A DNA stretch of 32,679 bases, from positions 1-32,679 of the forward strand of contig JAHDPS010000154.1 of NCBI GenBank assembly GCA_018434225.1, given 5' to 3'. How positions within the stretch are numbered: the stretch's first letter is position 1; every line of letters starts with the position of its first letter. Below the pieces are notes generated by a model. It was not told where the DNA came from. It did no database searches and saw nothing but the letters and a program-made list of their open reading frames with translations. This document shows positions 267 through 26,704 of the stretch, piece by piece. The stretch is from Bacillota bacterium (GTDB lineage Bacteria; Bacillota; Sulfobacillia; JABLXB01). A program made the position numbers and the translations under genes.

Positions 267-1595
267 TCAGGTCGTCTCGTGGATGTACAAGTCCCCCGCG
301 CTGTCCTGAAAGTAGACATGCACCCGCGCTCGCGCGTCGGTCGATTTCTCGAATTCCATCCTTCCGGAGCGTCGACAGGACTCGCACGCCCTCCTCGGCA
401 CAATGATGGCGCGCGCCCTGTAAACCCGTCCATCCTGGTGTTCGGCCACGGAGTCCACAAGGCGGTAACCGCTGCACTCCGCGCACAGCCGGATGGTCTC
501 GTCCTGATGCTCGACGATGCCGCCGGTGTCGTAATAAATGGTCCTTTGCCTGCGGAAGAAATCTCCCGATCCGAAAAGTCCCACCAGATCCGCTCGCTCC
601 CTCTCCCTCCAGGTCTCCAGCAACCCCGCGCACAGGTGCTCCAGGTACGGGGATATCCACTCCTCCTGCGCCAGGCCGCGTTCGTCGTAATCCGGTTCGC
701 GAACGTGTCCATAATCCCTACCCGCCAGGGCGAGCAGAATACCCACGTTTACGTACGGCAGCGCCCCCTCGATGGAATACCCTCCCTGGAGGACGAGGAT
801 GTCCGGGTCCAGGGCCGCGTTGAGCCTGGCATACCCCTGCGCCGTGACGTTCATACTGGTTATCGGGTCCGAGTAGTGATTGTCCTGGCCGGCGGAGTTG
901 ATCAGAACGTCCGGCCGGTATTCCTCCAACACGGGCAGGACCAGCCTATCCAACACGAGCATGAGTCCCTCGTCGCCAGTGCCCGGCGGAAGCGGCACGT
1001 TCAATGTCCCGGCGTAAGCGGCGGGACCGCCCAGTTCGTCCGGAAATCCCGTGCCGGGATACAACGTCCTGCCATCCTGGTGAATGGATATATGCAGGAC
1101 GCCCGGGTCGTTGTAGTAGATGTCCTGAGTGCCGTCGGCATGATGGGCGTCGGTATCGACGAACGCGATCCTCAGATCATCGCCGTACGCGCTCCTGATG
1201 TGCTCCGCCATGATGGCCTCGTTGTTGATATTGCAGAAGCCCCTGGCCCCGTGCACGATCCTCATGGCGTGATGCCCGGGCGGGCGCACGAGGGCTGCGG
1301 CCTTATCCACTTCGTGCCGCATGAACATATCGGCGGCCGCGATCGCCCCTCCGGCCGATATCAGGTGCGGCTCTCCGGCCACCGCTCTCACCGACGGTAC
1401 GCATATGTGCGCCCGCAGCACATCCACCTCCGATGCGATCGATGGCCTTCGCTCGACGAATTCGGGCAGGTCGAGCAGGCCCTCTTCGTGGATCTGATCC
1501 CTGGTGTACAGCAGGCGCTCCTCCCTCTCCGGGTGTGTGGGCGATATGGCCCAGTCGAGCGCAGGGAAGAACACCAATCCAACAGTCCTAGACAC
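267..1595 (-). CDS. Histone deacetylase-family amidohydrolase with C-terminal Cys-pair extension
   Basis: This is a zinc-dependent deacetylase of the HDAC/AcuC/acetylpolyamine amidohydrolase superfamily. Visible active-site elements are RPPGHHA (residues 104-110, paired His), DTDAHH (147-152; D149 and H151 as Zn ligands), SAGQDNH (234-240; D238 as third ligand) and GGY (271-273; catalytic Tyr). The catalytic domain ends near residue 300. About 140 further residues carry two Cys pairs, CAEC (371-374) and CESC (404-407), which look like a small zinc-ribbon module not usual in bacterial AcuC. Translation starts at a GTG preceded by GGAGAGGGGG and overlaps the end of the upstream hydantoinase gene by 8 bp, so the two are probably coupled. 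The substrate is unknown. Small acylated amines are as likely as proteins. Confidence 0.85.
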   Translation of the reverse strand: MSRTVGLVFFPALDWAISPTHPEREERLLYTRDQIHEEGLLDLPEFVERRPSIASEVDVLRAHICVPSVRAVAGEPHLISAGGAIAAADMFMRHEVDKAAALVRPPGHHAMRIVHGARGFCNINNEAIMAEHIRSAYGDDLRIAFVDTDAHHADGTQDIYYNDPGVLHISIHQDGRTLYPGTGFPDELGGPAAYAGTLNVPLPPGTGDEGLMLVLDRLVLPVLEEYRPDVLINSAGQDNHYSDPITSMNVTAQGYARLNAALDPDILVLQGGYSIEGALPYVNVGILLALAGRDYGHVREPDYDERGLAQEEWISPYLEHLCAGLLETWRERERADLVGLFGSGDFFRRQRTIYYDTGGIVEHQDETIRLCAECSGYRLVDSVAEHQDGRVYRARAIIVPRRACESCRRSGRMEFEKSTDARARVHVYFQDSAGDLYIHETT

Positions 1596-3327
1596 GCGGC
1601 CCCGCCCCCTCTCCGGAGTCGCAAAGCCGCAGTCTACTGGGCCTGACCTGCGCCTTCACGTTGAAGATCCTCCCGGACGTGTGAAAATCCCTGACGACGT
1701 TGAACGACTCCATCTCCACTATCTCCACGTCGCGTTCCCGCGCCCATTGGGCCCGCCTCAACACGTGGCGCTTCGTTATCTCCTCCGCGTCGCCCTCCCT
1801 CATGATCCGGCCGCTCGTTTCTTCTCTCATGCCGTCTTCCACGACGGTCACGAAGCCGGCGGCGGTGTCGATTCGAACCGTCGCCTCCACGGTGGGAACG
1901 GCCAGGGCTGCGCCGACAGCGTTGCCCACGGCGGCGAGGCCGGGCACGACGTATCCTACTCCCAGCGCGGATGCCACGAGCGGTGTGACGGCCGCCGGCG
2001 GCGCGCCTATCCCTACGACCACTTCCGGCTGGAATACGACGGGGTCTACGACCTCCCGAACGGTGTACACGGGGGTCCCCCGCAGGGCCTCAAGGCACCG
2101 CAGAATGAATTCCACTATCCTGCGAACCGCCTGTTCCACAGCACAATGGGCGAACCGCGCGTAGTTCATGCCCGATCGTTCCGCCTCGCGCCCTATCGCT
2201 GTCATGGATCTGGAGCGGTCGCCCGCATCCGCGAATCCGGCGACAACCAGCGCGTCGGTGAGGGTCGCGCCCGGACCCCCAAAGGCCGCGGCGGCGCCCC
2301 TCCTCGATCCCCCCACGAACACGGCGTCTTCGGAGGCCGAGACGGGAGTATCGCCACCAAGGGCGAGGGATCGTGAATACACGGCCCTTACCAGGGTCTT
2401 TCTCCCCGCGATCTCGGCTCCCTTCGCCTCCAACAACGGTTCCCCTTTAACGAAGAAGGAAACATCGGTGGTTGTTCCCCCGACATCCACAGACACGCCC
2501 GTCCCCCACCCGGGAGCGAGGGCGAGCGACCCGGCGACGCTCGCCGCCGGCCCCGAAAGGATGGACTCCACCGGCATGGAGCCGGACGTCTCCGCGTCCA
2601 TCGTCCCCGCGTCGGCCTTGAGGATCATGACGGGGCACGTCACACCCCTCTCGGCGAACGCCCTCCCCAGCGAGGAAACGAACGCGCCGAAGGTGGACGC
2701 CACTGCGCTGTTCAAGCACGCTGTCGCCGCCCTTCGGGGGAAGCTCAGGACACCTGAGAGCGAGTGGCCCATTGTAATGTGCTCGAACTCGTCCAATTCG
2801 CGGGCCATGCGCGCGACGCGCTTCTCCGGAGCGGGGTTGCGCACGCTGAATTTGCCGGCGACGGCGAGGTTCTCGAACCCGGCCGCGCGAAACTCCCGCA
2901 GCAACCTATCCACCTCGGCGGGGTCCAGGGGTTCCACCTCGCGGCCGCGGTGGTCCACGTATCCCCTCAATTCGGCCAGATCGAACACCCGACCGTCGAT
3001 GCCCGCCATTAACTTGAAGTCCGCGATTGAAAGGCCCGGGCCCGGCATGATCAACAATGCGACGGGCTCAAGTAGGCCCGAAAGCACCGCATTAGTACAT
3101 AGGGTGGTGCTCACCACCACCCGCTCGACCATGGAAGTCTCGCATCGTCGCGTGCCGTCGAACAGTGCGTCGAAAGCGGAAATGATCGCTCCACCGGGGT
3201 CCGCGTCCGAGGTGGCCTTCTTGGAAAGCGACAGGACCCTCGCGTTCTCCTCGCCCGTTCTCTCCAGGAGCACGGCGTCGGTGTACGTGCCGCCGACGTC
3301 GATCCCCACGATCAGGCTATTCGTCAC
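1588..3327 (-). CDS. Hydantoinase/oxoprolinase A-family protein (HyuA-like), no HyuB partner
   Basis: This is an ATP-dependent lactam/imide hydrolase or kinase-like protein of the HyuA/OplA fold (ASKHA-type). The N-terminal Hydant_A_N block starts IVGIDVGGTYTDAVL (residues 6-20, phosphate-binding loop 1). The main domain carries ILSGPAASV (256-264) and a second phosphate loop DVGGTTTDVS (281-290). At 579 residues it is close to the short HyuA-type members and lacks the HyuB or acetone-carboxylase partner usually encoded next to HyuA. The GTG start overlaps the TGA of the PHP gene as GTGA (3324-3327) and has a GGGGGG Shine-Dalgarno. The true substrate (hydantoin, 5-oxoproline or another lactam) cannot be told from sequence. 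Confidence 0.85.
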   Translation of the reverse strand: MTNSLIVGIDVGGTYTDAVLLERTGEENARVLSLSKKATSDADPGGAIISAFDALFDGTRRCETSMVERVVVSTTLCTNAVLSGLLEPVALLIMPGPGLSIADFKLMAGIDGRVFDLAELRGYVDHRGREVEPLDPAEVDRLLREFRAAGFENLAVAGKFSVRNPAPEKRVARMARELDEFEHITMGHSLSGVLSFPRRAATACLNSAVASTFGAFVSSLGRAFAERGVTCPVMILKADAGTMDAETSGSMPVESILSGPAASVAGSLALAPGWGTGVSVDVGGTTTDVSFFVKGEPLLEAKGAEIAGRKTLVRAVYSRSLALGGDTPVSASEDAVFVGGSRRGAAAAFGGPGATLTDALVVAGFADAGDRSRSMTAIGREAERSGMNYARFAHCAVEQAVRRIVEFILRCLEALRGTPVYTVREVVDPVVFQPEVVVGIGAPPAAVTPLVASALGVGYVVPGLAAVGNAVGAALAVPTVEATVRIDTAAGFVTVVEDGMREETSGRIMREGDAEEITKRHVLRRAQWARERDVEIVEMESFNVVRDFHTSGRIFNVKAQVRPSRLRLCDSGEGAGPRV

Positions 3328-4046
3328 GCCTGCCCCCCGTATCGCCTCAGGATAGCGAGGATGCCATCCATGGAGCAGTTGACCACGTATTCGGGCGGGA
3401 TTCCCGCCCGCTCCGCCGCTCGGACCGACTCATCGAGATCCCCGACATGGGCGGAGAAGTGGGCGTCGCTGTCGAGAGCGACCCTCACCCCGTGTTTTGC
3501 GCACAGGCGGGCGATGACCTCGCAGTTATCTTTGCTCCCGGCCCTTGCCCTGCAGAAAGAGGCGTTGTTCAACTCGATGATCTTCCCGTTGTCGGCCGCG
3601 GCCATCACCACCTTCTCGTAATCGACCGGAAATTGCGGGTTCCCCGGGTGGACGAGGACGTGCACCCATGGATTCCGCAACACCCCGATCGCGGCCGCGG
3701 TATTCTCTTCCACGCTCGAGGGCTCGAGGCACTCGGAGTGGAACCCCGCCAGCACGATCTCCAGCCGTTTCAGATATCTTTCGGGAAGGTCCACGGAGCC
3801 ATCGGGATCGATGATATTGGCCTCGATCCCCTTGATGACCCTGACTCCCTCGATCACAGGTGGAAGTGTGTAAAGGTTCCCGAAGTAGAACGGCTGGGGG
3901 CCGTAAGGCATGGCGGGACCGTGGTCGGTGATCGCGACGGCAAGAAGGCCCTTTTCCCTCGCGGCGCGCGCGTTCTCCTGAATGGTGCTGTACGCGTGCC
4001 CGCTGACGATTGTGTGGGTGTGGAGATCCGCTACTGGCTTGATCAA
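3324..4046 (-). CDS. PHP-domain phosphoesterase (YcdX-like)
   Basis: This is a metal-dependent phosphoesterase of the PHP superfamily. The metal-binding residues line up with the YcdX type: DLHTHT (7-12), TDHGP (40-44), GIEANI (E75), GFHSE (H103), VHPGNP (H133) and LDSDAH (D194, H196). Its 240 residues match stand-alone YcdX-like enzymes, whose physiological substrate is generally unassigned. The start is a TTG with a strong GAGGAGGACC site just upstream, 19 bp after the radical SAM gene. The end overlaps the hydantoinase start by 4 bp, so it sits inside a tightly coupled operon. Confidence 0.88.
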   Translation of the reverse strand: MIKPVADLHTHTIVSGHAYSTIQENARAAREKGLLAVAITDHGPAMPYGPQPFYFGNLYTLPPVIEGVRVIKGIEANIIDPDGSVDLPERYLKRLEIVLAGFHSECLEPSSVEENTAAAIGVLRNPWVHVLVHPGNPQFPVDYEKVVMAAADNGKIIELNNASFCRARAGSKDNCEVIARLCAKHGVRVALDSDAHFSAHVGDLDESVRAAERAGIPPEYVVNCSMDGILAILRRYGGQA

Positions 4047-4065
4047 TTCCGGTCCTCCTCCGGCA

Positions 4066-4935
4066 TCAAAATACGACCTCGATGGGACAACCGGCGCCCG
4101 CCCGCGCCTCTTCTATGCTGGCTCTGAGTTCGGCCTCGTATCCGGCGGGATCGTCCCTTGCCCACGCGAGGCGCCTGGCCGCCCTGCTCTCCCCCTGCAA
4201 CGCGCGCAGCACCCCGCTCACGCACGCGGGGTACATGTTCATCCTGTCAACCAGTATCCTTCTCACCCCCGCGTCGCGCAAGCGAGAGAACAGGACGCGG
4301 ATCGATTCGGCTCCATCCGAATAGTGAGGGATAAGGGGCCCCGCGAATGCCCAGGTATATATGCCCCTGGTCGCGAGGATCTCCAGAGCCCTGAATCTCC
4401 TCGATGAATCCGGCGCGCGCGGCTCGAAGACGCGCGATACGCGATCGTCCACGGTCGTGACGGTCATTCCCACCTCGACGCGCTGCATGCGCGATAGTAT
4501 GTCGGCGTCCCTGACGACCATGTCCGATTTGGTGAGGACCGATACAAGGGGTACCCTGGAAGTCTCCGCGACACCTGACCCCGGGAGGGCGACAGCCTCC
4601 GACCGGGCATCCTGCGTTTCCTCCAGTATATGGAGGCACTCCCTCGTGATACCGTATTCCGCCTCGACGGGCTGGTACGGGTCGGTGACGCTGGAAATCA
4701 CGATCTCCCCGCCCCCCACCCTGCGACACTCCCGACGAAGAGCCTGTGGGAAATTCACCTTCACGTCCACGAACCCACCCCAGGTCTCGGGGTGCGGACT
4801 GAATCTAGTCATGAAGGAGGCGTAGCAGTACACGCAGCCGTGTTCACAACCAGTATAGGGGTTGAGGGCGAAGTCAACCCCGGGAATTTTCGATTTGACA
4901 ATGGCGGATTTGCAGAGGATCTCGCGCACCCGCAT
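4066..4935 (-). CDS. SPL-family radical SAM protein (Rv2578c-like)
   Basis: This is a radical S-adenosylmethionine enzyme of the spore-photoproduct-lyase-like (SPL/Rv2578c) family. The iron-sulfur motif is near the N-terminus, NPYTGCEHGCVYCYA, with cysteines 30, 34 and 37 in a CxxxCxxC arrangement followed by Tyr. The next block, with VTDPYQPVE, is also typical of the family. It has 289 residues, the usual length. The conserved C-terminal cysteine of true SplB photolyases is not evident, so a DNA-repair role should not be assumed. It is the first gene of the four-gene minus-strand operon. It starts at ATG with GAGGTG upstream and follows an extended -10 promoter. Confidence 0.85.
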   Translation of the reverse strand: MRVREILCKSAIVKSKIPGVDFALNPYTGCEHGCVYCYASFMTRFSPHPETWGGFVDVKVNFPQALRRECRRVGGGEIVISSVTDPYQPVEAEYGITRECLHILEETQDARSEAVALPGSGVAETSRVPLVSVLTKSDMVVRDADILSRMQRVEVGMTVTTVDDRVSRVFEPRAPDSSRRFRALEILATRGIYTWAFAGPLIPHYSDGAESIRVLFSRLRDAGVRRILVDRMNMYPACVSGVLRALQGESRAARRLAWARDDPAGYEAELRASIEEARAGAGCPIEVVF

Positions 4936-4976
4936 TGACCGTGAGCACCTCGCTAAGCACCGGGTCGGCCAGACCT

Positions 4977-4985
4977 ATTATAGCA
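4977..4985 (-). promoter_or_regulatory. Extended -10 promoter for the radical SAM/PHP/HyuA/HDAC operon
   Basis: Read on the minus strand, TGCTATAAT gives a perfect -10 hexamer (TATAAT, 4977-4982) with an extended TGn. A clear -35 box is missing, as is common for extended -10 promoters. The start of transcription would fall near 4970, about 35 nt before the ATG at 4935. Confidence 0.6.
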
Positions 4986-5004
4986 TGGGGACCCGGCAAC
5001 ATAA

Positions 5005-5034
5005 TTGACTCCGCCTCAGGCGACCTGATACAAT
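5005..5034 (+). promoter_or_regulatory. Sigma-A promoter for the MATE gene
   Basis: TTGACT (5005-5010) and TACAAT (5029-5034) are separated by 18 bp. Transcription would start near 5041, giving a leader of about 25 nt with GGAG (5057-5060) six bases before the ATG at 5067. It lies back-to-back with the minus-strand promoter at 4977-4985. Confidence 0.65.
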
Positions 5035-5066
5035 TTGGAGATGACCTCGTCCAACTGGAGATCGAT

Positions 5067-6464
5067 ATGAAAGCACCGAAGCGGCCCATCGACGCAAGCG
5101 CCAGCGGCGCCAGCGGCGGCAATGAGCCATCGCTGCGCGGCGAGGTGCTCAGACTGGCTTTCCCCGCAATCCTCGAAATGACCGCCCACATGTCCGTATG
5201 GATGGTGGACACCGCCATGGTGGGGAGACTGGGCTCGGAGGCTCTCAGCGCGGTGGGGATGGCCGGCCAGATATTCTGGACGATCACGTGGGTCTTCGGA
5301 GCCCTTGGCGCGGGGATAATCGCCATGGCCGCTCGTTCCTTCGGAGCGGGCGACACGGATGAGACCTCCCGGCTGGCCTCAGAGAGTATCGGGGTGGCGG
5401 CCCTCATGTCCACGCTTCTCTTCGCCGTGATAAGGGGCGCGGCGGGACCCGCCGCGAACTCGATCGCGATGGGCGAAGAGGTCAGGGTGGGCATGAGAGG
5501 CTACCTCTCCGTGATGTCGTACGGCGCCCTCCCGATACTGGTGTTGCTCTCCGGCACAGCCATCCTGCGGGCCACGGGGGATACTCGGACTCCACTCGTC
5601 ATCGCGGGACTGGCCAATGCATTCAACGCGGTCGCGGACTGGGTCCTCATATTCGGAAAGTTCGGATTCCCAAGGCTCGGAGTAAGGGGCGCCGCAATCG
5701 CTAGCGCCGCGTCGTTCGCTCTGGGAGCAATCCTAATCATCTGCGTCCTTCTTGCGGGCAGAAACGGGGTTCGGTTGCGATTGGCCCACCTGTTCAAATT
5801 CCGAAAGGAGACAGCGCTGAGACTGGTCTCCCTGAGCGCGCCCGCGGGACTGGAGAGCCTCCTCATGGATGGGGCCCGTTCCGTCCAGATGTTCATCATG
5901 ACAGCGCTTGGCGACGTCGGTTTCGCAGCCAATCAAGTGGCGGTGTCCTGCGAATCCCTCTCGTTCATGCCGGGATACGGCTTCGCCATCGCTTCCAGCA
6001 TCATGGTTGGGCAATCGCTCGGAGCGGGGGACGTGAAACGCGCGAGGGCCGGCGCCGGGGAGTGTCTGCGCCAGGGGGCCCTGATCATGGGCGTCATTGG
6101 GATCCTCTTCCTATCCGTCCCGCAGTACCTTGTCCGCGTGTTCACTCAACAGCCTCAAGTGATCTCCCAGGCTTCTCTGGCCCTTAGGACGGCCGGCCTG
6201 TTCCAGGTCGTGATCGCCACCACAGACGTGTTGAACGGGGCATTGAGGGGATCGGGGGACACGCGCACACCCCTCAAGATAACCGCCCTCGGGGCCTGGC
6301 TCCTCAGGATTCCCCTGTCGTACCTGGCCGTGCGCCTGCTCCACCTACCGCTTGTCGCCGTCTGGTTGATCAACGGTATCGACTGGGTGGCGCGGGCGTG
6401 CGCGATCGCGGCGGCGTTCAGGTCGGGGGCGTGGGCGAAATCGAGGACTCCCTTCAGGAGCTAG
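5067..6464 (+). CDS. MATE-family multidrug/cation antiporter
   Basis: This is a 465-residue multidrug and toxic-compound extrusion (MATE/NorM/DinF-type) exporter in the cytoplasmic membrane, normally driven by a Na+ or H+ gradient. About twelve hydrophobic segments arranged as two similar halves can be read. The first repeat has MVDTAMVGRLGSEALSAVGM and the second has MIMTALGDVGFAANQVAVSC-like text, both hallmarks of the family. The open frame extends upstream to 4935, but that would include the promoter and the neighbouring divergent start. The ATG at 5067, with GGAG six bases before it, is preferred. The 3' end overlaps the convergent diguanylate cyclase gene by 11 bp, leaving no room for a terminator. 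The exported substrate is unknown. Confidence 0.88.
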   Translation: MKAPKRPIDASASGASGGNEPSLRGEVLRLAFPAILEMTAHMSVWMVDTAMVGRLGSEALSAVGMAGQIFWTITWVFGALGAGIIAMAARSFGAGDTDETSRLASESIGVAALMSTLLFAVIRGAAGPAANSIAMGEEVRVGMRGYLSVMSYGALPILVLLSGTAILRATGDTRTPLVIAGLANAFNAVADWVLIFGKFGFPRLGVRGAAIASAASFALGAILIICVLLAGRNGVRLRLAHLFKFRKETALRLVSLSAPAGLESLLMDGARSVQMFIMTALGDVGFAANQVAVSCESLSFMPGYGFAIASSIMVGQSLGAGDVKRARAGAGECLRQGALIMGVIGILFLSVPQYLVRVFTQQPQVISQASLALRTAGLFQVVIATTDVLNGALRGSGDTRTPLKITALGAWLLRIPLSYLAVRLLHLPLVAVWLINGIDWVARACAIAAAFRSGAWAKSRTPFRS

Positions 6465-8514
6465 CGGGACCGGGCGTCGCCCTGGACACCGCAACGGCGT
6501 TTCCACCGCTGCGCTTGGCCATGTATAGGGCCACGTCCGCCGCTTCCACCAACGAGGGTCGGGTCGTCGCGTTGGAGGGACACGTAGCTACGCCAAAACT
6601 GGCCGTAATACGCACGGTATGAGATTCTTCCGCGCCCGGGAATCGCTCCCTTTCCAGTCCCGCCCTCAACCGCTCGGCCACGTCCGCGGCCTCCGCTGAA
6701 CCCACCCCGGGGAGGATCAGCGCGAATTCGTCTCCGCCGTACCTTGCGACAATGCTCTCCAGCCTCACGCCGGCCGCAAGGAACTGGGAGACCTTCTGCA
6801 GGAGGACGTCGCCGGAGGGATGCCCGAACGCGTCGTTGTAGTCCTTGAACCTGTCGAGGTCCGCCATTACGAGGCTCACCTCGCGGCCGCTCTTCATGCT
6901 CTTCTGCACCTCGGACGCGAGCGACTCCTGCATGTACCTGTGATTGTAACATGCCGTCACGCCATCCATGATCGCCAGCTTCTTCGTGGCCTCGTGCAGC
7001 CGGGCGTTCTCTATGGCGACTGCGGCGCGCGAACCTATGATGTACAGCATCTTCGTATCATCGTCGGTGAATTGCCTTGGAGTGGAGCTCGCCACCGTGA
7101 GCACGCCGACGACCCGTCCCTCCGATATTAAGGGAATACAGGCCATCGACACGATCTTGGGCCCCCCTAACACGCTCTCTTTGAACCGCGGCTCCAGGGA
7201 GACGTCCGGCACGATTACGGCCTTGCCTTCCAGGGCGGCCCAACCCGCCAGTCCTTCGCCCACACGGAAGCGCACCCGGTTGATCAACGACGGGTCCGCT
7301 CCCCTCGCGGCCTTCATCACCAGATCGTCCGTGTTCGGCTCTATCAGCATCAGCGAACAACGCTCGACTCCCAGCAGGTTCCCCACCATATCGAACGTGG
7401 CGTTCAGCACGCGCCCCATGTCGAGCGTCGAACTGAGCGCCGACGCCACCTCGTACAACGCCGACAGGTCCTTGACGCGGCGCTTGAGTTCCTCGCCCAG
7501 TCTCGCGTTCTCGAGGATCACCCCAAGATCCCGCGCCAGTAACTCGAGCAGGTTGAGATCCTCGACCGTGAAGAAACCCTTCCTGGAATCCTGGGCGGTC
7601 ACACAACCGATAACGTTGCGACCAGCCATGAGCGGCGCGATTATCGCGGAACCAGCCCCCGAACCACCGGTGCTCCGCGAATCCTTGGTGATATCGGCGA
7701 TGAAATCGGCGCCGCCAGTACGAACACACCACTCAGCAAGTCCCCAGTCCACGGTACCGCCTGCCCTGGAGCATCCGGCCGTCCCGGAAAGCAACCGTAG
7801 GTCGGCCGAACCCTCCCCCTCGGACAGGAAGAGGGCAATACGCGTCCATCCCGTACGCGATTTCATGGCCTGGATTGCCCTGGAAGCAGTCTGTTCGGTG
7901 GTGTCTCCCCCACCGCAACTGGAGGATATTTCGTACAGGAGGGACAGTTCCCTGATGCGCCTCTCCCTCTCCTGCAGCAATCTGGCGGTTTGTATAGCGG
8001 AAGCCGCCAGAGAGGCGGCCACTGAAAGCATCCTGCAATCATGCTCGCTGAATCCCGCCGGCTTCTCCTTTTCGAGGTTGAAGACGCCGATTATCTCACC
8101 GCGCACTCTCAGGGGCACCGCTATCTCGGAGACCGTATCACCCTGCGCCTTGAAATATCTCGGGTCTTCCCTCACATCGCTCACCAAGGCCGGCTGTCCG
8201 GTCATCGCCACCCAACCTGTCACGCCCTGGCTTACAGGAATCCTGATATGCGCCACTTTCGACAACGGCACGCCCCATGATGCCCTAACCCGTAGAACCT
8301 GTTCCTCCTCGTCCACGAGCAGGATGTGAGAGTAGGTCGCCCCGAAGCGCCTGCCGATTCGTTCTACGAGAAAATCCAGCAGTTTTTGGGGATCGGTGGT
8401 CTCGCCCACTGCTTGAGCGGTAAGATACAGGATCTCTTCTTCTGTCCGGTATTGCTGGAGTTCGGTATTGAGGTCACTCATTTGGCGGGCTGAGTGATCG
8501 AACGCCCGGGACAT
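6454..8514 (-). CDS. Triple-GAF diguanylate cyclase (GGDEF)
   Basis: This 686-residue soluble signalling protein probably makes cyclic di-GMP in response to ligands or redox/light signals sensed by three N-terminal GAF domains (about 25-175, 195-340 and 355-510). The C-terminal GGDEF domain (about 515-680) has the metal/substrate block DLDRFKDYND and an intact active site YGGDEF (GGDEF at 593-597). The product-inhibition site that would read RxxD just before it is RLES here, so the aspartate is missing. No transmembrane segment is visible. The ATG at 8514 is chosen because AGGAGGG lies seven bases upstream; an in-frame ATG at 8547 lacks such a site. The gene overlaps the MATE gene tail to tail. 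Confidence 0.9.
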   Translation of the reverse strand: MSRAFDHSARQMSDLNTELQQYRTEEEILYLTAQAVGETTDPQKLLDFLVERIGRRFGATYSHILLVDEEEQVLRVRASWGVPLSKVAHIRIPVSQGVTGWVAMTGQPALVSDVREDPRYFKAQGDTVSEIAVPLRVRGEIIGVFNLEKEKPAGFSEHDCRMLSVAASLAASAIQTARLLQERERRIRELSLLYEISSSCGGGDTTEQTASRAIQAMKSRTGWTRIALFLSEGEGSADLRLLSGTAGCSRAGGTVDWGLAEWCVRTGGADFIADITKDSRSTGGSGAGSAIIAPLMAGRNVIGCVTAQDSRKGFFTVEDLNLLELLARDLGVILENARLGEELKRRVKDLSALYEVASALSSTLDMGRVLNATFDMVGNLLGVERCSLMLIEPNTDDLVMKAARGADPSLINRVRFRVGEGLAGWAALEGKAVIVPDVSLEPRFKESVLGGPKIVSMACIPLISEGRVVGVLTVASSTPRQFTDDDTKMLYIIGSRAAVAIENARLHEATKKLAIMDGVTACYNHRYMQESLASEVQKSMKSGREVSLVMADLDRFKDYNDAFGHPSGDVLLQKVSQFLAAGVRLESIVARYGGDEFALILPGVGSAEAADVAERLRAGLERERFPGAEESHTVRITASFGVATCPSNATTRPSLVEAADVALYMAKRSGGNAVAVSRATPGPASS

Positions 8515-8586
8515 CTCGCTTCCCTCCTGGTGAACGGCAACAGCCATATTTCGACTTGTCCCGCGGAAATCCTCTCGGACTATGGA

Positions 8587-9540
8587 CTAGGCAGAGTCCG
8601 GAGTTCCCAGGCCCTTTCTCACCACCAGCACACTCCCGAGGATCAGCGCCGCTCCCACAGCCTGAATCCATTCGAAACGCTCCCTGAGGAAAACAAACGC
8701 CAGGATGGCGGACATGAGGGGCTCGGATGTCCCGAGGATCGCGGTCCTGGTCGCGCCTATCCGGATGAGCGCGCCCATCAACGCGACCATGGGGATGGCC
8801 GTCGAGATCACCGCAAGCGGGGCGACGGCGGCCCACGAGCCGGCAGCCGTCGGTACCCATCGATCGCCTGAGACGATGGCGCTGACAATGTAGAACCCCG
8901 CCCCCCACAACATCACATACGTGGACATCACCACCGGCTGGAGTCCGGCCACGATCCTCCTGGACACGACCGAGTAGGCGGCGTAGGATACTCCCGCGGC
9001 CAGGGCCATCACCACGCCTCGGATATCCAGGCGCTGGATGCCGCCACCAAGTGCGGGAGCCCACACGATGAAAGCGCACCCCAGCAACGACATGATCATG
9101 GCCCGCACCTTCGCCCGATCCAGCCGCTCTCCCAGGGCGGGGCCCGCGATGAGCGCCGTCGCCACGGGGTATACGGAGAACAACATCGTGGCGACCCACG
9201 CAGGGATGAATCTTACTGACGTCGAGTATAACCAGGAGAACCCGCCGTAACCGACGCTCCCGATGAGCGCGACGCGCACCGCCGTGGCCCGATCGGTGCG
9301 TAGCGACAGCCTCCGCGCGCAACAGTAAATCAGCATCAACGCCGACGCGATGCAGAACCGCCACGCCAATACGCCCGTCGTCGTCGCGCCGAGGGAAAAG
9401 GAGTATTTGTACAGTACGGGCAGGGTGCTGAAGCCCGCCGCCGAGACGATGGCCAGGATCATCCCCGTGACGCCGGGGCGGGGCGCTCTACCGGATCTCC
9501 GCGCACAACGGGCAAATGACCTCGTCCAGCTTGCTATCAT
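8587..9540 (-). CDS. EamA/DMT-family transporter
   Basis: This integral membrane protein has about ten hydrophobic helices in two EamA repeats, the architecture of drug/metabolite transporters such as RhaT- or YdcZ-like exporters. The first repeat starts MILAIVSAAGFSTLPVLYKY. The second covers the region with GVVMALAAGVSYAAYSVVSRR and ends with AFVFLRERFEWIQAVGAALI, a typical family ending. Two starts are possible. The ATG at 9540 lies three bases after the stop of the YitT gene with GGGAGGG 12 bases upstream. The ATG at 9462 would drop 26 non-hydrophobic residues and fits the family start better, but has only a weak ribosome site. The substrate cannot be deduced. Confidence 0.83.
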   Translation of the reverse strand: MIASWTRSFARCARRSGRAPRPGVTGMILAIVSAAGFSTLPVLYKYSFSLGATTTGVLAWRFCIASALMLIYCCARRLSLRTDRATAVRVALIGSVGYGGFSWLYSTSVRFIPAWVATMLFSVYPVATALIAGPALGERLDRAKVRAMIMSLLGCAFIVWAPALGGGIQRLDIRGVVMALAAGVSYAAYSVVSRRIVAGLQPVVMSTYVMLWGAGFYIVSAIVSGDRWVPTAAGSWAAVAPLAVISTAIPMVALMGALIRIGATRTAILGTSEPLMSAILAFVFLRERFEWIQAVGAALILGSVLVVRKGLGTPDSA

Positions 9541-9543
9541 TCG

Positions 9544-10368
9544 TTACACAGTCCCTCCCTCGAACCCCTCCCCCAACACCTCCGCCACGTCCGTCACTAT
9601 GACGAAGGCGCGGGGATCCACCTGCTTTATCAACCGCTTCAATCTGCCTACCTCTCTTGCGTTCACGGCCGCCAGAATGACCATCTTCTCGTCTGAGGTA
9701 TAACCGCCGCGCCCGCTCAGATAAGTCACGCCCCGCTCGAGCCCGTCCATGATGGCGGTGGCGATTTCCTCGGGGTGATCGGACACGATGATTGCGGCCT
9801 TCGCCCGCGACAGCCCTTCCTGCACATACTCCGCCACCTTGCCTCCGAGGAAGGTGATCATCAGGGCGTAGAGTGCGGTGTTCGCGCCCATGGTGAGGCC
9901 TACGATCGTCAGGATCGCCATGTCTGTAATGGTGTATGTTGCGGCCATCGACACACTGTGCGCTCGCTTCAAGTAAAACGCGAGAATGTCCATGCCGCCC
10001 GAAGAGCCGCCGGCGCGCAGCATCAATCCAGATCCCAATCCACCTATCGCCCCGCCGTAGAGGGAGGCGAGCAACAGGTCGTCCATCTGAAACCTGAGCC
10101 CCTGAGTGAGGTACAGGGCGACAGTAAATAACGCCACGCCCAGCACTGTTTTTCCGCAGAACCTGCGGCCGAGCTTCGCGTAGCCGAACACAAGGATGGG
10201 GACGTTCACCGCCGCGTACAGATATGCAACTGGGATCCCGGCGAATCTGTGCGCGACCACGCACAGCCCCGTGATGCCCCCCTGTCCAAGGTTATTTGGC
10301 ACCACAAACCCGTTGGTGCCTACCGCTAGTATCACGGCGCCCGCTCCCAGCCACAGAATGTCCTTCAC
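9544..10368 (-). CDS. YitT-family membrane protein (DUF161 + DUF2179)
   Basis: This 274-residue membrane protein matches the YitT family. Five to six hydrophobic segments form the N-terminal YitT_membrane domain, with GTNGFVVPNNLGQGGITGL near residues 17-35 and the conserved LMLRAGGSSGGMDILAFYL block. A soluble ferredoxin-like DUF2179 domain follows (about 190-270: ERGVTYLSGRGGYTSDEKMV onward). The molecular function of the family is not established. The start is GTG at 10368 with GAGAGG upstream; an ATG two bases earlier is out of frame and hits a stop at once. It is followed at 3 bp by the EamA gene, so the two transport-like genes are co-transcribed. Confidence 0.88.
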   Translation of the reverse strand: MKDILWLGAGAVILAVGTNGFVVPNNLGQGGITGLCVVAHRFAGIPVAYLYAAVNVPILVFGYAKLGRRFCGKTVLGVALFTVALYLTQGLRFQMDDLLLASLYGGAIGGLGSGLMLRAGGSSGGMDILAFYLKRAHSVSMAATYTITDMAILTIVGLTMGANTALYALMITFLGGKVAEYVQEGLSRAKAAIIVSDHPEEIATAIMDGLERGVTYLSGRGGYTSDEKMVILAAVNAREVGRLKRLIKQVDPRAFVIVTDVAEVLGEGFEGGTV

Positions 10369-10477
10369 ATCTCATACCTCTCTCTATTTGAGACAGTCCC
10401 TATTAGAGACGACCCATCCAACCGGATTGTTGCGCCCCTCAGCGCGCCCTCCCCCCGGCGTATTGAAGCGCCCCCTC

Positions 10478-10506
10478 ATTACACATTTCGTGGCAAACGG
10501 CCGCAA
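10478..10506 (-). promoter_or_regulatory. Candidate sigma-A promoter for yitT-eamA
   Basis: On the minus strand TTGCGG (10501-10506) and TGTAAT (10478-10483) are 17 bp apart. Transcription would start near 10471 and leave a leader of about 100 nt. No convincing terminator for the upstream L,D-transpeptidase gene is seen in the same 147-bp gap. Confidence 0.4.
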
Positions 10507-10515
10507 TCCTTGCCG

Positions 10516-11535
10516 TCACAACCCTAACAGCCTCATGAGATCGGGAGACGTTACTCCCGTCGGCTCGAACCCGTAGAACATCTGCATGTCTTTCACGGCC
10601 GACTCGGTCGCCGGACCGAAATCACCGTCCGCCCGCTGATCGTAGAAGCCCTTTTCTCGGATTTTCATCTGGAACAGGACCACGTCCTGCGCCCCGCTTC
10701 CCAATCTCAGAACATCTCTGCATCGCAACTGGGATATGTCCCCTTCTATGGTTACCGGTGTGCCCGCCTCCACCCACGCATACAGCTCCTCCACGTCGTG
10801 GTTGAACATGCGGAAACACCCATGGCTGGCCATATAACCGACAGTCCACGGCCTATTCGTTCCGTGGATGCCATACATCCCCCACGGGACATTGAGCCCT
10901 ATCCAACGGCTGCCGAGTACCCCGCCTATGCCGCTGCTCTTCCATAGGACCTTGAACTCGCCCACCGGCGACGGGGTCTCCGATTTTCCGATAGCCACCA
11001 CGTAACTCTTGTGTACGGCCCCATCGGAATAGACTGTCAACCGGCACTGGTCTATATTGATTCTCAGATGGACGCTTCCCTCGGGAGGCGGCACGGCGGC
11101 CCGCGCGGCCGGTGTCCCTCCTTCGATTTCAACCCATGTCTGCAGGTCGTAGGCACCCGTCACGGGCACCCGCAGCCACCGTTGCAGTGATCTGACGGCA
11201 TCGGCCGTCGCCACACCGTACACGCCGTCGAGGGCACCTTGGTAAAACCCCTTGTCTCCTAGGTACGCCTGGAGGTCCCTCACATCGCTCCCCGTCATAG
11301 GGGGCGATTTCACGCTCAATACCCTCCATTCCTCGCATCCGTCAGGCAACTCCCCGAACGTGGCGTCGTGCGAAGAGCGCGATCCCTCCTCATCCTCTGG
11401 ACCCGCCCGCTCCGGCGGCGTGGGTCCCATGGCCCGCATAGGCGACCCAGGCGAAACAATATTGATTCGCGATGATAACGCCGACATCACGATCACAGCA
11501 GTCAAGAACGCGACAAGGCACCATGTCACCCTCAC
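10516..11535 (-). CDS. L,D-transpeptidase (YkuD) flanked by two peptidoglycan-binding domains
   Basis: This exported cell-wall enzyme forms or edits L,D-crosslinks in peptidoglycan. A hydrophobic N-terminal segment (residues 5-20) acts as a signal peptide or anchor. A first peptidoglycan-binding domain (about 78-135) contains LQAYLGDKGFYQGALDGVYG. The YkuD catalytic domain (about 155-265) carries the signature His224 (IHGT) and SHGCFRM, with nucleophile Cys240. A second peptidoglycan-binding domain (about 275-337) closes the protein. Having wall-binding domains on both sides of the catalytic domain is less common than a single one. The start is GTG with GAGGAGG nine bases upstream. It lies downstream of the pyr genes and the MerR-like gene on the same strand. 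Confidence 0.88.
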   Translation of the reverse strand: MRVTWCLVAFLTAVIVMSALSSRINIVSPGSPMRAMGPTPPERAGPEDEEGSRSSHDATFGELPDGCEEWRVLSVKSPPMTGSDVRDLQAYLGDKGFYQGALDGVYGVATADAVRSLQRWLRVPVTGAYDLQTWVEIEGGTPAARAAVPPPEGSVHLRINIDQCRLTVYSDGAVHKSYVVAIGKSETPSPVGEFKVLWKSSGIGGVLGSRWIGLNVPWGMYGIHGTNRPWTVGYMASHGCFRMFNHDVEELYAWVEAGTPVTIEGDISQLRCRDVLRLGSGAQDVVLFQMKIREKGFYDQRADGDFGPATESAVKDMQMFYGFEPTGVTSPDLMRLLGL

Positions 11536-11603
11536 CCGAGTAAGCCTCCTCTCGCAACAACGGTATGAAGACGAAAGTGAGGGAATACCCGGGGTGATGG
11601 ATA

Positions 11604-12257
11604 CTAGCTCCGGAAGAGACGCTCCAAATAGTGAGCGCGCTCGGCGCGCCTGCGTTTACGAGAGGATGTCAAGGAGAAATAACGTTTCAACTGCTTTTCG
11701 CGCGCGGGGTCGTCGGTTACGCCTGACAGGACCCAGCGGCGTTCCTTCTGGACGGAGTTTATCACGCTGACGCTGGCAGCCACCCTCAAGCGAGCATCAC
11801 TCAAGGAGCCGGCGTGACTCCCGGGGTGGGCCTTCCTGTACGAGGTCACGGTATCTCTCCACAGGCCTTCTTCGAACCGCACGAGTTCTTCCACTATGAC
11901 CTGCTGCATCTCGATGCTTAGGCCCATCGCGGCCATCCCGTCGATGAACTCCATGGTATCCGCAATGGAACACGCGTTGTAGAGATCACCCGCCTGAGTC
12001 CTTCTCTGCGGCACCAGCAGGCATTGTTCGATGAGATAGTGCATCCTGGCCACGTCAAGCCCGTTGGCCCTCGCGAAATCGTACAGATCCGCTTCAGTCA
12101 TGTATGACCGGTCATCATAGGGCAACCTCAGTTGACCCGAAAACACGGCATTCGCAAGCCATTCGAGTTCATCCACCGGATCGCGGCCCACATGCATACC
12201 CCCGAAATTTCCTGTAGTTCCCATATTCCGTGAGCCCGCTCGAATTCCTGCCATCAT
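11604..12257 (-). CDS. MerR-like helix-turn-helix protein of unknown function
   Basis: I do not recognise an established family over the full length. Counting from the ATG at 12257, residues 53-125 resemble a MerR-type DNA-binding domain: a helix-turn-helix (MTEADLYDFARANGLDVARM), a LIEQCLLVP turn, a short wing, then a second helix pair ending FIDGMAAMGLSIEMQQVIVE, comparable to the LreLGfsLeeI part of MerR. The rest is charged and helical, ending in a basic tail (SSRKRRRAERAHY). The start is uncertain. The frame is open back to 12353 but that overlaps pyrE; ATG codons at 12257, 12224 and 12197 and a GTG at 12191 are all possible and none has a strong ribosome site. Effector and targets are unknown. 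Confidence 0.55.
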   Translation of the reverse strand: MMAGIRAGSRNMGTTGNFGGMHVGRDPVDELEWLANAVFSGQLRLPYDDRSYMTEADLYDFARANGLDVARMHYLIEQCLLVPQRRTQAGDLYNACSIADTMEFIDGMAAMGLSIEMQQVIVEELVRFEEGLWRDTVTSYRKAHPGSHAGSLSDARLRVAASVSVINSVQKERRWVLSGVTDDPAREKQLKRYFSLTSSRKRRRAERAHYLERLFRS

Positions 12258-12285
12258 TGAGACAATACGAGAGTGTTCCGAATCG

Positions 12286-12879
12286 TCAGGGGGTTCCGGC
12301 GGCTGACTTCGGGCGTCCGACCGGCACGCCCGCACGGCAAAGCGGACAATCATCCGGCTCGTAAGATGGAATATCCAGCCCCAGCATCGAGACGAAGGGC
12401 ACTCCGAAATCCACTCTGCCTCCGGACCTATCCACCAGCGCGGCGACGCCGACCACGTCCGCGCCGGCGGCTCTGATGAGCTGCATCAGTTTCAACGCGG
12501 ACCCGCCGGTCGTCACCGCGTCCTCGACGACCAGGCACTTCTCCCCGCGGGACACCTGGAAACCCCTGCGAAACGCGAGGCCCACGGCCGACTCCTCCGA
12601 GGCCACCTTCTCCGCGTATATGGCCCTTGCCCCGAGCGCTCTAGCCATTTCATACGCCAGTATCACGCCGCCCATGGCCGGCCCGGCCACGCATTGCGGG
12701 GAGAATCCCTTCACCTTCGCCGCCAGCGCGGAGCAAATGCGCTCCAGGTGCGCCGGCCGTTGCATCACCATGGAGCACTGGAGGAAAGTGGAACTGTGAC
12801 GGCCGGACGTGAGCAGGAAGTGTCCCCTCATTATCACGCCGTCATCCTCGAACACCTGGAGCACGTCCCTCTCGTTCAA
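12286..12879 (-). CDS. pyrE: Orotate phosphoribosyltransferase
   Basis: PyrE converts orotate and PRPP to orotidine 5'-monophosphate in de novo UMP synthesis. The PRPP-binding motif LVVEDAVTTGGS is at about residues 116-127, and the upstream VAGPAMGGVILAYEMA block fits type I phosphoribosyltransferases. The protein ends with a CPLC motif (about 178-181), seen in a subgroup of PyrE proteins from thermophiles and some Bacillota. The GTG at 12888 directly abuts GGGAGG, so the TTG at 12879, nine bases from that site, is the more likely start. It is the last pyrimidine gene of the pyrK-pyrD-pyrF-pyrE order. Confidence 0.92.
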   Translation of the reverse strand: MNERDVLQVFEDDGVIMRGHFLLTSGRHSSTFLQCSMVMQRPAHLERICSALAAKVKGFSPQCVAGPAMGGVILAYEMARALGARAIYAEKVASEESAVGLAFRRGFQVSRGEKCLVVEDAVTTGGSALKLMQLIRAAGADVVGVAALVDRSGGRVDFGVPFVSMLGLDIPSYEPDDCPLCRAGVPVGRPKSAAGTP

Positions 12880-15743: not shown

Positions 15744-15852
15744 CTCTTATCCAGAGCGGCGGAGGGACTGGCCCGATGAAGCCCGGCAACCTGCGGTCTC
15801 ATTAGCCGTAAGGTGCCAACTCCTGCAGGACGGATGGTCCTGAGAGATGAGA
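15744..15852 (+). promoter_or_regulatory. SAM-I (S-box) riboswitch aptamer
   Basis: The plus-strand leader of metX has the conserved S-box text in order: CTCTTATC and AGAG for P1/P2, then GGAGGGACTGGCCC, GATGAAGCCCGGCAACC, AAGGTGCCAACTCCTGCAG, and GAGAGATGAGAG closing P1. Binding of S-adenosylmethionine stabilises this fold and lets the downstream terminator form, lowering expression of methionine genes. The gene it precedes, metX, fits that role. Confidence 0.95.
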
Positions 15853-15866
15853 GAGTGGGAGATTCT

Positions 15867-20496: not shown

Positions 20497-21627
20497 TTAG
20501 AAGACGATCTTGTGCCTCCTCATATAGACGTTCAACAACAGACCGACCGCAGCCATGTTCGTGATCATCGAGTTGCCGCCGTAGCTCATGAACGGTAAGG
20601 GAATCCCCGTCACCGGCATCATCCCGACAGTCATGCCCACGTTGATCAGGATGTGGAAGGCCAGCATCGAAACCACTCCCACGGACAGGAGAGCGCCGAA
20701 GTAATCCCTGGCCATCGCGGCTATTCTCAGGCCCCTCCACAACACGAACAAGTACAGCGTCAGTACGGCTATCCCTCCGATGAACCCCAGTTCTTCGCCA
20801 ATCACGGAGAAAATGAAGTCTGTGTGCTGGAACGGGAGAAACCTCAGCTGGTTCTGGGTACCCGCGAAAAGCCCCTTGCCGACGAGTCTCCCCGAACCTA
20901 TCGCGATGATGGATTGCCTGAGCTGATAGCCGGACCCGAGCGGATCGATTCCGGGGTTGGTGAAGACGATGAGCCTCTTCAACTGGTAGTCCTCCAGCGG
21001 CAACGGGAGACCCCAACGGAAATGCGCCACCACCGCCCCGATCACCGAGCCAAGTCCCGCCACGACGATACGCGCCAGGATCCTGCCCGGGGCGCCCGCG
21101 GCAACCAGTATGCCCAGCGTGATCGCCACAAAAGCGAGCGAGGTGCCCAGGTCCGGTTGCTTGAGCACGAGCAGCATGGCTGGCGCGATGTGGATGAAGG
21201 AGGAGATTATCTCGGCCCAGCCGTGCTCTTCGCCATCCCTCCGTGATAGGCTTGCCGCCAGCGTAATGATCATGCATAGCTTGGCCAGTTCCGATGGTTG
21301 GAGTGAAACCGGGCCTATCTGGACCCATCTCTGCGCGCCCAGCGTGGTCCTTCCCGCCGCTGTGACGGCGACGAGCAGGCCCAGGTTGAATACGTAGATG
21401 AGCCTCGAGAACCTGGCCAGGTCGCTGTAGTCTACCGACATGACTGCAAGCGCCACGAGAATGCCTATGGCGATAGATACTCCCTGTCGCTTCACCAGCG
21501 AGAAACCGCCCGTCGATGGGGCCTGCGTGGCGCTGGCTATCATAGGAAGACTAATCGCGGACAGGATCAGGACCGCCGTCACCAGCGCCCAATCCAGTCC
21601 CCGCTTCATGCGCCGTTCCGCGATCAT
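20497..21627 (-). CDS. rodA: RodA peptidoglycan glycosyltransferase (SEDS family)
   Basis: This membrane glycosyltransferase polymerises lipid II during cell elongation together with PBP2. It has about ten transmembrane segments over 376 residues and shows SEDS signatures: GAQRWVQIGPVSLQPSELAKL, VLKQPDLGTSLAF, the catalytic-region text SGYQLRQSIIAIGSGRLVGKG, FQHTDFIFSVIGEELGF, and GIPLPFMSYGGNSM. The position in the mre/mrd/min cluster argues for RodA rather than FtsW or SpoVE. The ATG lies one base after the minE stop, so translation is probably coupled; an ATG at 21609 is an alternative. It is the last gene of the shape cluster. Confidence 0.92.
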   Translation of the reverse strand: MIAERRMKRGLDWALVTAVLILSAISLPMIASATQAPSTGGFSLVKRQGVSIAIGILVALAVMSVDYSDLARFSRLIYVFNLGLLVAVTAAGRTTLGAQRWVQIGPVSLQPSELAKLCMIITLAASLSRRDGEEHGWAEIISSFIHIAPAMLLVLKQPDLGTSLAFVAITLGILVAAGAPGRILARIVVAGLGSVIGAVVAHFRWGLPLPLEDYQLKRLIVFTNPGIDPLGSGYQLRQSIIAIGSGRLVGKGLFAGTQNQLRFLPFQHTDFIFSVIGEELGFIGGIAVLTLYLFVLWRGLRIAAMARDYFGALLSVGVVSMLAFHILINVGMTVGMMPVTGIPLPFMSYGGNSMITNMAAVGLLLNVYMRRHKIVF

Positions 21628-21628
21628 C

Positions 21629-21922
21629 TCAGGATCGTCGTGAGCCGTTGATCTCGCCGGCCCGCTTTATCCTCCTCACCGGTATGTTCGCGACCAGGGC
21701 CACCGACGCGTCCGAGTTGGAGAGGCTGAAGCTCACCGCCGAGCCATCGATCTCGAGATACTTCGACGCGGCCTTTATCATGTCTTCCCTGACCTTCTCG
21801 ATGAGATGGGGCGCCACTCCCGCCCTATCGTTGACGAGTGTCAAGCGAAGGCGCTCTTTGGCCACGTCCTTGCTGCCAAAGCCCCTCGTTTGAAGTCGGC
21901 TGAAGAATCCTATGGGACCCAC
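21629..21922 (-). CDS. minE: Cell division topological specificity factor MinE
   Basis: MinE stimulates the MinD ATPase at the membrane and drives pole-to-pole oscillation or localisation of MinCD. The conserved body is clear: SKDVAKERLRLTLVNDRAGV (anti-MinCD helix and first strand), PHLIEKVREDMIKAASKYLEI and then VSFSLSNSDASVALVANIPV. The frame is open to 21988, but that would overlap minD by 62 bp and give an unusual N-terminus. The GTG at 21922 lies four bases after the minD stop behind a GGGAGG site and yields 97 residues beginning MGPIGFFSRL, normal for MinE. Confidence 0.92.
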   Translation of the reverse strand: MGPIGFFSRLQTRGFGSKDVAKERLRLTLVNDRAGVAPHLIEKVREDMIKAASKYLEIDGSAVSFSLSNSDASVALVANIPVRRIKRAGEINGSRRS

Positions 21923-21926
21923 CCCC

Positions 21927-22727
21927 TCACCGGCCTCCCAATCCAAGAAATCTCTTGAAGCGATCGAAAAAGCCATCTTGTTCCTCAATGGGCATGAACG
22001 GCACTTGCTCCCCGGTGATTCGCCTCGCCACGTTCCTGTACGCCTCTCCCGCCCTGGAATTCGCGTGGAGGGAGGCGGGCTCGCCCTTGTTGGTCGTGAC
22101 CACTATGCTGTCGTCCTCGGGAACCACACCGAGAAGGTCCACGGACAGGATATCCACTATGTCTTGAACATCCAGCATATCGCCCTTCTTCACGAGGCGC
22201 GGCCTTATCCTGTTGACGACCAACCAGGGTGATGCCACATCCGTCGCCTCGAGCAGGCCGATGATCCGGTCCGCGTCCCGCACGGCTGAAACCTCTGGAG
22301 TCGTTATTATAATCGCCTTGTCCGCTCCGGCGATTGCGTTCTTGAACCCCTGCTCGATCCCTGCGGGGGAATCCACGAGCACGTAGTCGAAATCGTTCTT
22401 GAGTTCGTTCACGATCTTCTTCATCTGCTCCGGCCTCACCGCGGTCTTGTCCTTCGTCTGCGCGGCGGGCAGGAGGCACAGTCCTTCGATCCGCTTGTCC
22501 TTGATGAGGGCGTTCTTCATCTTGCAGTAGCCCTCCACCACGTCCACCAGATCGTATACGATCCGCTGCTCCAGTCCCATGACGACATCGAGGTTCCGCA
22601 GACCTATGTCAGCGTCGATCATCGCAACCCTCTTGCCGATACTTGCGAGAGCAGTACCTATATTGGCTACGGCGGTCGTCTTTCCGACGCCCCCCTTGCC
22701 CGAAGTAATGACGTAACCTTCGCCCAT
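21927..22727 (-). CDS. minD: Septum site-determining ATPase MinD
   Basis: MinD is the membrane-cycling ParA-type ATPase that recruits MinC. It has the deviant Walker A motif GKGGVGKTTAV near residue 11, the switch region MIDADIGLRNLDVVMGLE, Walker B DYVLVDSPAGIEQGF, and a C-terminal amphipathic membrane-targeting helix (FFDRFKRFLGLGG). It has 266 residues. Of two adjacent starts, GTG at 22730 and ATG at 22727, the ATG has the better spacing from GGGGAGG. It is followed at 4 bp by minE. Confidence 0.95.
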   Translation of the reverse strand: MGEGYVITSGKGGVGKTTAVANIGTALASIGKRVAMIDADIGLRNLDVVMGLEQRIVYDLVDVVEGYCKMKNALIKDKRIEGLCLLPAAQTKDKTAVRPEQMKKIVNELKNDFDYVLVDSPAGIEQGFKNAIAGADKAIIITTPEVSAVRDADRIIGLLEATDVASPWLVVNRIRPRLVKKGDMLDVQDIVDILSVDLLGVVPEDDSIVVTTNKGEPASLHANSRAGEAYRNVARRITGEQVPFMPIEEQDGFFDRFKRFLGLGGR

Positions 22728-22742
22728 CACACAACCTCCCCG

Positions 22743-23417: not shown

Positions 23418-23521
23418 CAAGGCGCCTCCTCACTCCGTAGCCTGATTCTCGCCCGGAGCTGCAATTCCTTCACCCGGTGCCAGAATACTCCAGTTCACCC
23501 GCTATCATTCAGGGGTTTGAC

Positions 23522-25363: not shown

Positions 25364-25366
25364 GTT

Positions 25367-26694: not shown

Positions 26695-26704
26695 CACGCC
26701 CTTC

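Follow-up and report, generated by a model that had tools for sequence, protein, structure and literature searches.

The closest described counterparts of the system considered here are the ATP-dependent enzymes CapAB, 5-oxoprolinase and HyuAB on the one hand, and the classical deacylases of the histone deacetylase (HDAC) fold on the other. For the caprolactamase CapAB, the authors of PMC8453981 propose a division of labour in which CapA uses ATP to phosphorylate the lactam, which then travels through a tunnel to a zinc site in CapB and is hydrolysed there; the same paper gives GxxPGP as the adenosine-binding motif of the HyuA family and Asn269 of CapA as part of a proposed substrate site. For the classical deacylases, PMC11532494 names as motifs a double His, GFC, the Asp-His-Asp zinc ligands and GGY. 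Here we analyse a stretch of 32,679 nucleotides from a Bacillota bacterium (contig JAHDPS010000154.1, positions 1 to 32,679 of the forward strand; hereafter the window), in which a short HyuA-type ATPase gene is followed by a gene for an HDAC-fold zinc amidohydrolase. We propose, with a probability of about 0.4, that in anaerobes these two proteins make up a single ATP-dependent amidohydrolase system, either as its two subunits or as two steps that are both obligate. Both protein families are already known, and what appears to be new is their pairing, which the family names alone (hydantoinase, histone deacetylase) conceal. No description of the combination was found among the matches listed in the full-text literature searched, a coverage that leaves out most subscription journals.

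Pairing of the HyuA and HDAC genes

The proposal starts from the strictness with which the two genes occur together. The three genome sets counted here are samples. Whole-genome searches at fixed thresholds detected HDAC in 119 and HyuA in 118 of 299 genomes that share the window's phylum (E limits 1e-70 and 1e-55, respectively), both genes in 116 and neither in 178. HyuA lies directly upstream, in the order HyuA-HDAC, in 113 of the 116 genomes with both, and the remaining three have a partial HyuA match about 1 kb upstream of HDAC on the same strand. A similar picture emerges for 119 genomes of Methanosarcinia, where 66 carry HDAC, 66 HyuA, 65 both and 52 neither, with the genes adjacent in 64; the HyuA clade was counted here at an identity of at least 49% (E <=1.7e-60), and matches at or below 39% were dropped. 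At the threshold used, HDAC gives exactly one match in each of the genomes that have it, 119 and 66 in the two samples. The third sample, 198 genomes of the phylum to which the Desulfobacteraceae genome G090 belongs, was searched for HDAC, which is present in 49, again with one match listed per genome.

A separate scan of contigs, for which the window protein was aligned with its orthologue from the related genome G001, yielded 345 HDAC relatives. The best 80 of 345 belong to anaerobic Bacillota, Methanosarcina, Methanothrix, Desulfobacteraceae and others, and are 50-64% identical. In 78 of these 80 loci HyuA is encoded upstream of HDAC in the same orientation; one of the two exceptions (L128) has only about 260 bases upstream of HDAC, and the other (L133) is discussed below. 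Some loci, for example L093 and L111, have a partial or split HyuA. With start codons picked by script, an overlap of the two frames is seen in 31 of the 73 loci where it could be measured, 4 nt being the commonest length (15 loci). Taken together, the near-obligate pairing of HyuA and HDAC is well supported.

The pair often occurs where HyuB was not detected. Of 21 genomes carrying the pair, 11 gave no match to PF02538 (HyuB), the completeness of most of these assemblies not being established; four of the 11 are isolates, namely Syntrophomonas zehnderi, Fuchsiella alkaliacetigena, Halanaerobium salsuginis and Ammonifex thiophilus. If the assemblies are complete enough, the HyuA of the pair is independent of HyuB in those 11 genomes. 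One single-protein scan of viral contigs, sensitive to close relatives only, found no copy.

The two proteins also have largely congruent trees. Trees of HyuA and HDAC, built from 74 sequences each, have 49 of 71 splits in common; when the labels were permuted 200 times, the shared splits averaged 0.21 and never exceeded 3. The path distances of the two trees correlate with r 0.92, shared ancestry not being removed from this value. In each tree a single branch separates the 20 archaeal sequences from all others (SH-aLRT 97), so that a single joint acquisition of both genes is plausible from these unrooted trees.

Conserved residues and the proposed ATP-dependent system

The AF2 model of the HDAC protein (pLDDT 87) superimposes on HDAH and Kdac1 over about 320 residues (range 1-334), with VIA Z ~37 and a root-mean-square deviation (rmsd) of 2.6-3.0. 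His108, His109, Asp149, His151, Asp238 and Tyr273 are invariant in all 82 sequences compared (the window and 81 loci), as are Gly119-Phe120-Cys121 (GFC) and Gly271-Gly272-Tyr273 (GGY). To judge by these conserved residues, the zinc and His-His-Tyr active site is intact. The protein thus shares with the classical deacylases HDAH, Kdac1 and HdaH (cluster 1 of PMC11532494) the fold and the RPPGHH, GFC, DxH...D and GGY motifs. It differs from them in its near-obligate HyuA partner, in an identity of ~27%, in the sequence Gln237-Asp238-Asn/Ser239-His240, and in a C-terminal extension with four cysteines (Cys371, Cys374, Cys404 and Cys407) that are likewise invariant in 82 of 82. The structural comparisons reach residue ~335 at most. 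Residues 336-442 match no PDB sequence at E values up to 10, and among 52 members searched at E 0.1 no Pfam domain besides Hist_deacetyl occurs in more than two. The four cysteines are a possible structural metal site.

These similarities bear on a first alternative, namely that HDAC is a regulatory or protein deacylase that controls the acylation of central-metabolism enzymes in anaerobes, with HyuA as its target or ATP-driven partner. The closest solved folds are indeed those of the deacylases HDAH, Kdac1 and HDAC6, and the catalytic set equals that of the classical deacylases as given in PMC11532494. The CdhC domain of acetyl-CoA synthase is also more common in genomes with the pair (55 of 119, against 34 of 180; kinship uncorrected). 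However, 64 of the 119 pair-bearing genomes have no CdhC match, and no acetyltransferase or acetyl-CoA synthetase was recognised by eye in the 45 largest clusters of neighbouring genes. On balance we consider a regulatory role unlikely.

The HyuA protein matches both PF05378 (Hydant_A_N, 8.9e-33) and PF01968 (Hydantoinase_A, 1e-32) above the cut-offs. Its AF2 model (pLDDT 89) aligns over its full length with the ATP subunits of several known enzymes. The best structural match is the beta subunit of acetone carboxylase (5svc_B; VIA Z 36.1, 536 residues, rmsd 4.2), followed by acetophenone carboxylase (VIA Z 28.5), the caprolactamase subunit CapA (24.6) and N-methylhydantoinase (24.2). Unlike the acetone and acetophenone carboxylases, to which its identity is 19%, the pair locus encodes no carboxylase metal subunit. 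Residue counts for HyuA are based on 72 sequences; L133, incomplete genes and two genes whose extended frame contains a stop were left out. Both phosphate motifs (DxGGTxT and DxGGT) are conserved: Asp10, Gly12, Gly13, Thr14 and Thr16 of the first and Asp281, Gly283 and Gly284 of the second are invariant (72 of 72), and Thr285 is present in 71. The pair therefore has in common with CapAB, 5-oxoprolinase and HyuAB a HyuA-type ATPase with both phosphate motifs and a metal-dependent amidohydrolase encoded alongside, whereas its partner has the HDAC fold in place of HyuB and its HyuA is shorter (~570 aa against ~690). Among other HyuAs of class relatives, some of which have equally short frames, a reading of motifs and neighbours by script gave no clear result.

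In the pair, the first half of the system is related to CapA and its constant partner is a different zinc amidohydrolase; the simplest reading is that HDAC takes the place of HyuB. HyuA, as an ATPase of the acetone carboxylase/caprolactamase type, would phosphorylate and so activate an amide, a lactam or a cyclic imide, and the HDAC-fold zinc enzyme would carry out the hydrolysis that is done by HyuB in the HyuAB enzymes. We infer the chemistry, as well as a physical complex within which the activated intermediate would be handed from HyuA to HDAC. More specifically, the pair may perhaps form a two-site enzyme, an ATP-driven HDAC in which the phosphorylated substrate moves from an ASKHA kinase-like site to an HDAC-type zinc site; we put this forward tentatively. 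In the same tentative way, an unrelated hydrolase fold might have replaced HyuB, and the reaction could be one of housekeeping in methanogens and anaerobic bacteria. Should HyuA feed the HDAC site, amide hydrolysis would be coupled to ATP by a new route, and the pair would provide the first energy-coupled member of the HDAC fold known to us. The near-obligate HyuA partner also makes the function of this HDAC directly testable.

A number of observations weigh against such a joint system. The adenosine motif GxxPGP is absent from the HyuA of the pair; the aligned stretch is RRGAAAAFGG in the window, and the family consensus there is GPAxCLGG. Where known HyuAs have GGG, the pair HyuA has an invariant GGD (Gly324, Gly325 and Asp326; 72 of 72). 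Because of these two differences, nucleotide use by the pair HyuA could differ from that of known HyuAs. In an alignment made by eye, the substrate-site Asn269 of CapA is replaced in 67 of 72 sequences (Phe or Leu in 66) and retained in five. Within the phylum, HDAC is found alone in G308, G433 and G456, although the matches in G433 and G456 are partial and G308 has a HyuA fragment beside HDAC; HyuA is found alone in G296 and G315, and among Methanosarcinia one genome is HDAC-only and one HyuA-only. No natural HyuA-HDAC fusion occurs in 73 loci, five same-frame cases all containing stops. In Ammonifex thiophilus (L133), HyuA lies about 3 kb from HDAC on the opposite strand. Finally, the trees are largely, not fully, congruent, because the archaeal branch stands beside different Bacillota in each: beside the Syntrophomonas type for HDAC and beside the Desulfotomaculum type for HyuA, with moderate support.

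The separated genes of A. thiophilus fit a second alternative, in which two separate enzymes serve one short pathway: HyuA on its own opens or otherwise modifies a ring with ATP, and HDAC then deacylates the product without any complex. This scheme accounts for the gene pairing as well as a complex does. Nevertheless, in CapAB, according to PMC8453981, it is the metal-site partner of the HyuA-type subunit that does the hydrolysis. In addition, no other hydrolase recurs beside the pair, its frequent neighbours being labelled mutS, mutL, miaA, miaB, hfq and further genes of their operon. We regard the short pathway as doubtful. Our confidence in the joint system stays limited because the genomic facts are explained almost equally well by two successive steps that need no complex, or by a deacylase with a regulatory role.

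Genomic context and phylogenetic profiles

Gene neighbourhoods were compared in 160 loci, comprised of the best 80 of 345 relatives and 80 stretches (60 from the phylum and 20 archaeal) chosen mostly for family spread, which together hold 152 distinct HDACs. The labels mutS, mutL, miaA, miaB, hfq, spoVK, ylbF and pcm were read by eye from the sequence, with no family search. The only frequent context is an operon of the typical order miaB-ylbF-mutS-HyuA-HDAC-mutL-methyltransferase-miaA-hfq-spoVK, the neighbours being varied elsewhere. The order mutS-HyuA-HDAC-mutL is found in 38 of the 152 distinct loci; in five the pair adjoins only one of mutS and mutL, and in four it adjoins miaB or miaA. 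Another 100 loci have other neighbours, and five are not callable. In four loci (L110, L114, L126 and L264) the pair is flanked by miaB or ylbF on one side and by miaA on the other, and neither mutS nor mutL was called adjacent.

The repeated location in this operon raises the question of whether the pair serves mismatch repair or the modification of tRNA at A37, in line with the three operon contexts just given. In contrast, the 100 loci with other flanking genes, and the lack of mutS or mutL beside the pair in all 18 callable archaeal stretches (20 were examined), argue against it, and a location in a housekeeping operon need not imply a common function. We consider such a role very unlikely.

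Beyond the genes of the mutS-mutL-miaA-hfq operon, no recurrent third partner was seen in the 160 loci. A pcm-like gene occurs in seven of them and a MATE gene in five, and both look lineage-bound or occasional. The former, a gene resembling protein-L-isoaspartate methyltransferase, is divergent and directly upstream of the pair in L070, L081, L082, L092, L131 and L213, and one open reading frame (ORF) further off in L074; the carriers are mostly related Bacillota.

Phylogenetic profiles were used to consider a further function, that of an unrecognised 5-oxoprolinase replacing PxpABC. The latter opens its lactam in an ATP-dependent manner and was considered as a functional analogue of the pair, although it is built from other protein families. 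The solved relatives of HyuA include a chain named 5-oxoprolinase, and PxpA (PF03746) is rarer in genomes with the pair (26 of 119, against 62 of 180; p 0.02 by a Fisher test which, like all Fisher tests on these profiles, ignores kinship). The association is weak, however; 26 of the 299 genomes hold both the pair and PxpA and 118 hold neither. We consider a replacement of PxpABC very unlikely.

The locus in the window and its neighbours

The pair of the window stands at the end of a run of four genes on the minus strand, next to a divergent MATE gene (Table 1).

Table 1. Features of the HyuA-HDAC locus and its promoter region (positions in the window)
Feature	Position	Strand	Evidence
HDAC-fold (Hist_deacetyl) zinc amidohydrolase, 442 aa	267-1595	-	Pfam PF00850 1.9e-59
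Four-Cys stretch CxxC...CxxC, residues 371-407 at the HDAC C-terminus	375-485	-	invariant in 82/82
Short orphan HyuA-type ATPase, 579 aa	1588-3327	-	Pfam PF05378 and PF01968
PHP-domain protein, PRK09248 type, TTG start	3324-4046	-	NF006702 9.4e-89, above cut-off; Pfam PHP
Radical SAM protein, PA0069/Rv2578c-like	4066-4935	-	PF04055 5.3e-11
Divergent MATE exporter ORF	4935-6464	+	TIGR00797 6.3e-80; Pfam MatE
Extended -10 element TGCTATAAT, ahead of the four genes	4977-4985	-	motif match

The sequence-only reading of this stretch had described the four genes as one tightly spaced operon behind a single extended -10 promoter, without HyuB. Its description of the layout is borne out: a 19-nt gap (4047-4065) separates radical SAM and PHP, the PHP and HyuA frames overlap by 4 nt (3324-3327), and HyuA, the upstream partner, overlaps HDAC by 8 nt (1588-1595). 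The extended -10 element has one match in the whole window compared with 0.14 expected by chance. A two-hexamer sigma-70 scan found no minus-strand promoter ahead of the radical SAM gene; on the plus strand it gave a site at 5005-5034 (one in the region, against 1.1 expected by chance), which could be the promoter of the MATE gene. The MATE ORF as listed begins at TTG 4935. ATG 5067 is the likelier start, because the match to the homologue in G001 begins only at residue 45. The radical SAM protein also matches NF033668 (1.1e-38), below the cut-off of that model. There is no HyuB in the four-gene locus, and the only HyuB match of the genome adjoins a different HyuA on contig C132.

The same reading had suggested the stepwise breakdown or salvage of a cyclic, acylated, phosphorylated compound, with a separate chemistry for the radical SAM protein and with the MATE exporter possibly handling the same compound. 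Comparison with other genomes did not confirm the four genes as a conserved set. A radical SAM homologue is present in none of the 160 pair-bearing loci. PHP homologues occur in five and never adjoin the pair, other genes intervening and the midpoints of the matches lying at least 5.1 kb from that of HDAC. The grouping of the four genes is incidental, because radical SAM and PHP are rarely near the pair in other genomes. What stands of the proposed enzyme grouping is the joint action of the orphan HyuA and an HDAC-type amidohydrolase without HyuB, for which their co-occurrence and adjacency are strong support.

The genes for a GAF-GGDEF protein, MATE, radical SAM and PHP are syntenic in all three family genomes searched (G000, G001 and G002). 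In G002 the block of MATE, radical SAM and PHP is present and no match to HyuA or HDAC was found. In G001 the HyuA-HDAC pair is found ~7.8 kb downstream of radical SAM and PHP, in the same orientation; the interval between PHP and the pair contains opposite-strand genes, among them ABC-transporter genes. The two modules are thus close together in two of the three family genomes and touch only in the window. The four-gene locus is a junction of two separate modules; the conserved pair does not include PHP, radical SAM and MATE, which are its neighbours here and belong to the other block.

The MATE exporter belongs to this radical SAM-PHP block. Its handling of the same compound as the pair has weak support: among the five MATE-bearing loci, in which one place is counted twice, a MATE gene immediately precedes HyuA in the same orientation at two distinct places, L067 (= L219) and L116. 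These two places, the close spacing and single promoter element in the window's genome, and the strand and order kept in G001 at a distance of 7.8 kb, are what a four-enzyme breakdown pathway with MATE export would have in its favour. We find such a pathway scarcely credible; as a candidate it was rejected on the neighbourhoods of the 160 loci and on the block of G002 without the pair.

Further genes of the window lie around the two modules. The minus-strand block at 6454-12353, with genes for the GAF-GGDEF protein (6454-8547), an EamA transporter, a YitT membrane protein, an L,D-transpeptidase carrying peptidoglycan-binding domains, and a further ORF, is syntenic with MATE, radical SAM and PHP in G001 and G002. 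Cell-shape and division genes follow at 20497-27739 on the minus strand (FtsW/RodA, a penicillin-binding transpeptidase and MreB). A SAM-I riboswitch aptamer (RF00162) lies at 15744-15853 on the plus strand and scores 96.7 bits against a gathering score of 44.4. At the other end, positions 1-174 of the plus strand hold the end of an ORF that by eye resembles a 235-aa ORF of G001 (L062:12867-13574), which sits there past HDAC and two acetolactate-synthase-like genes.

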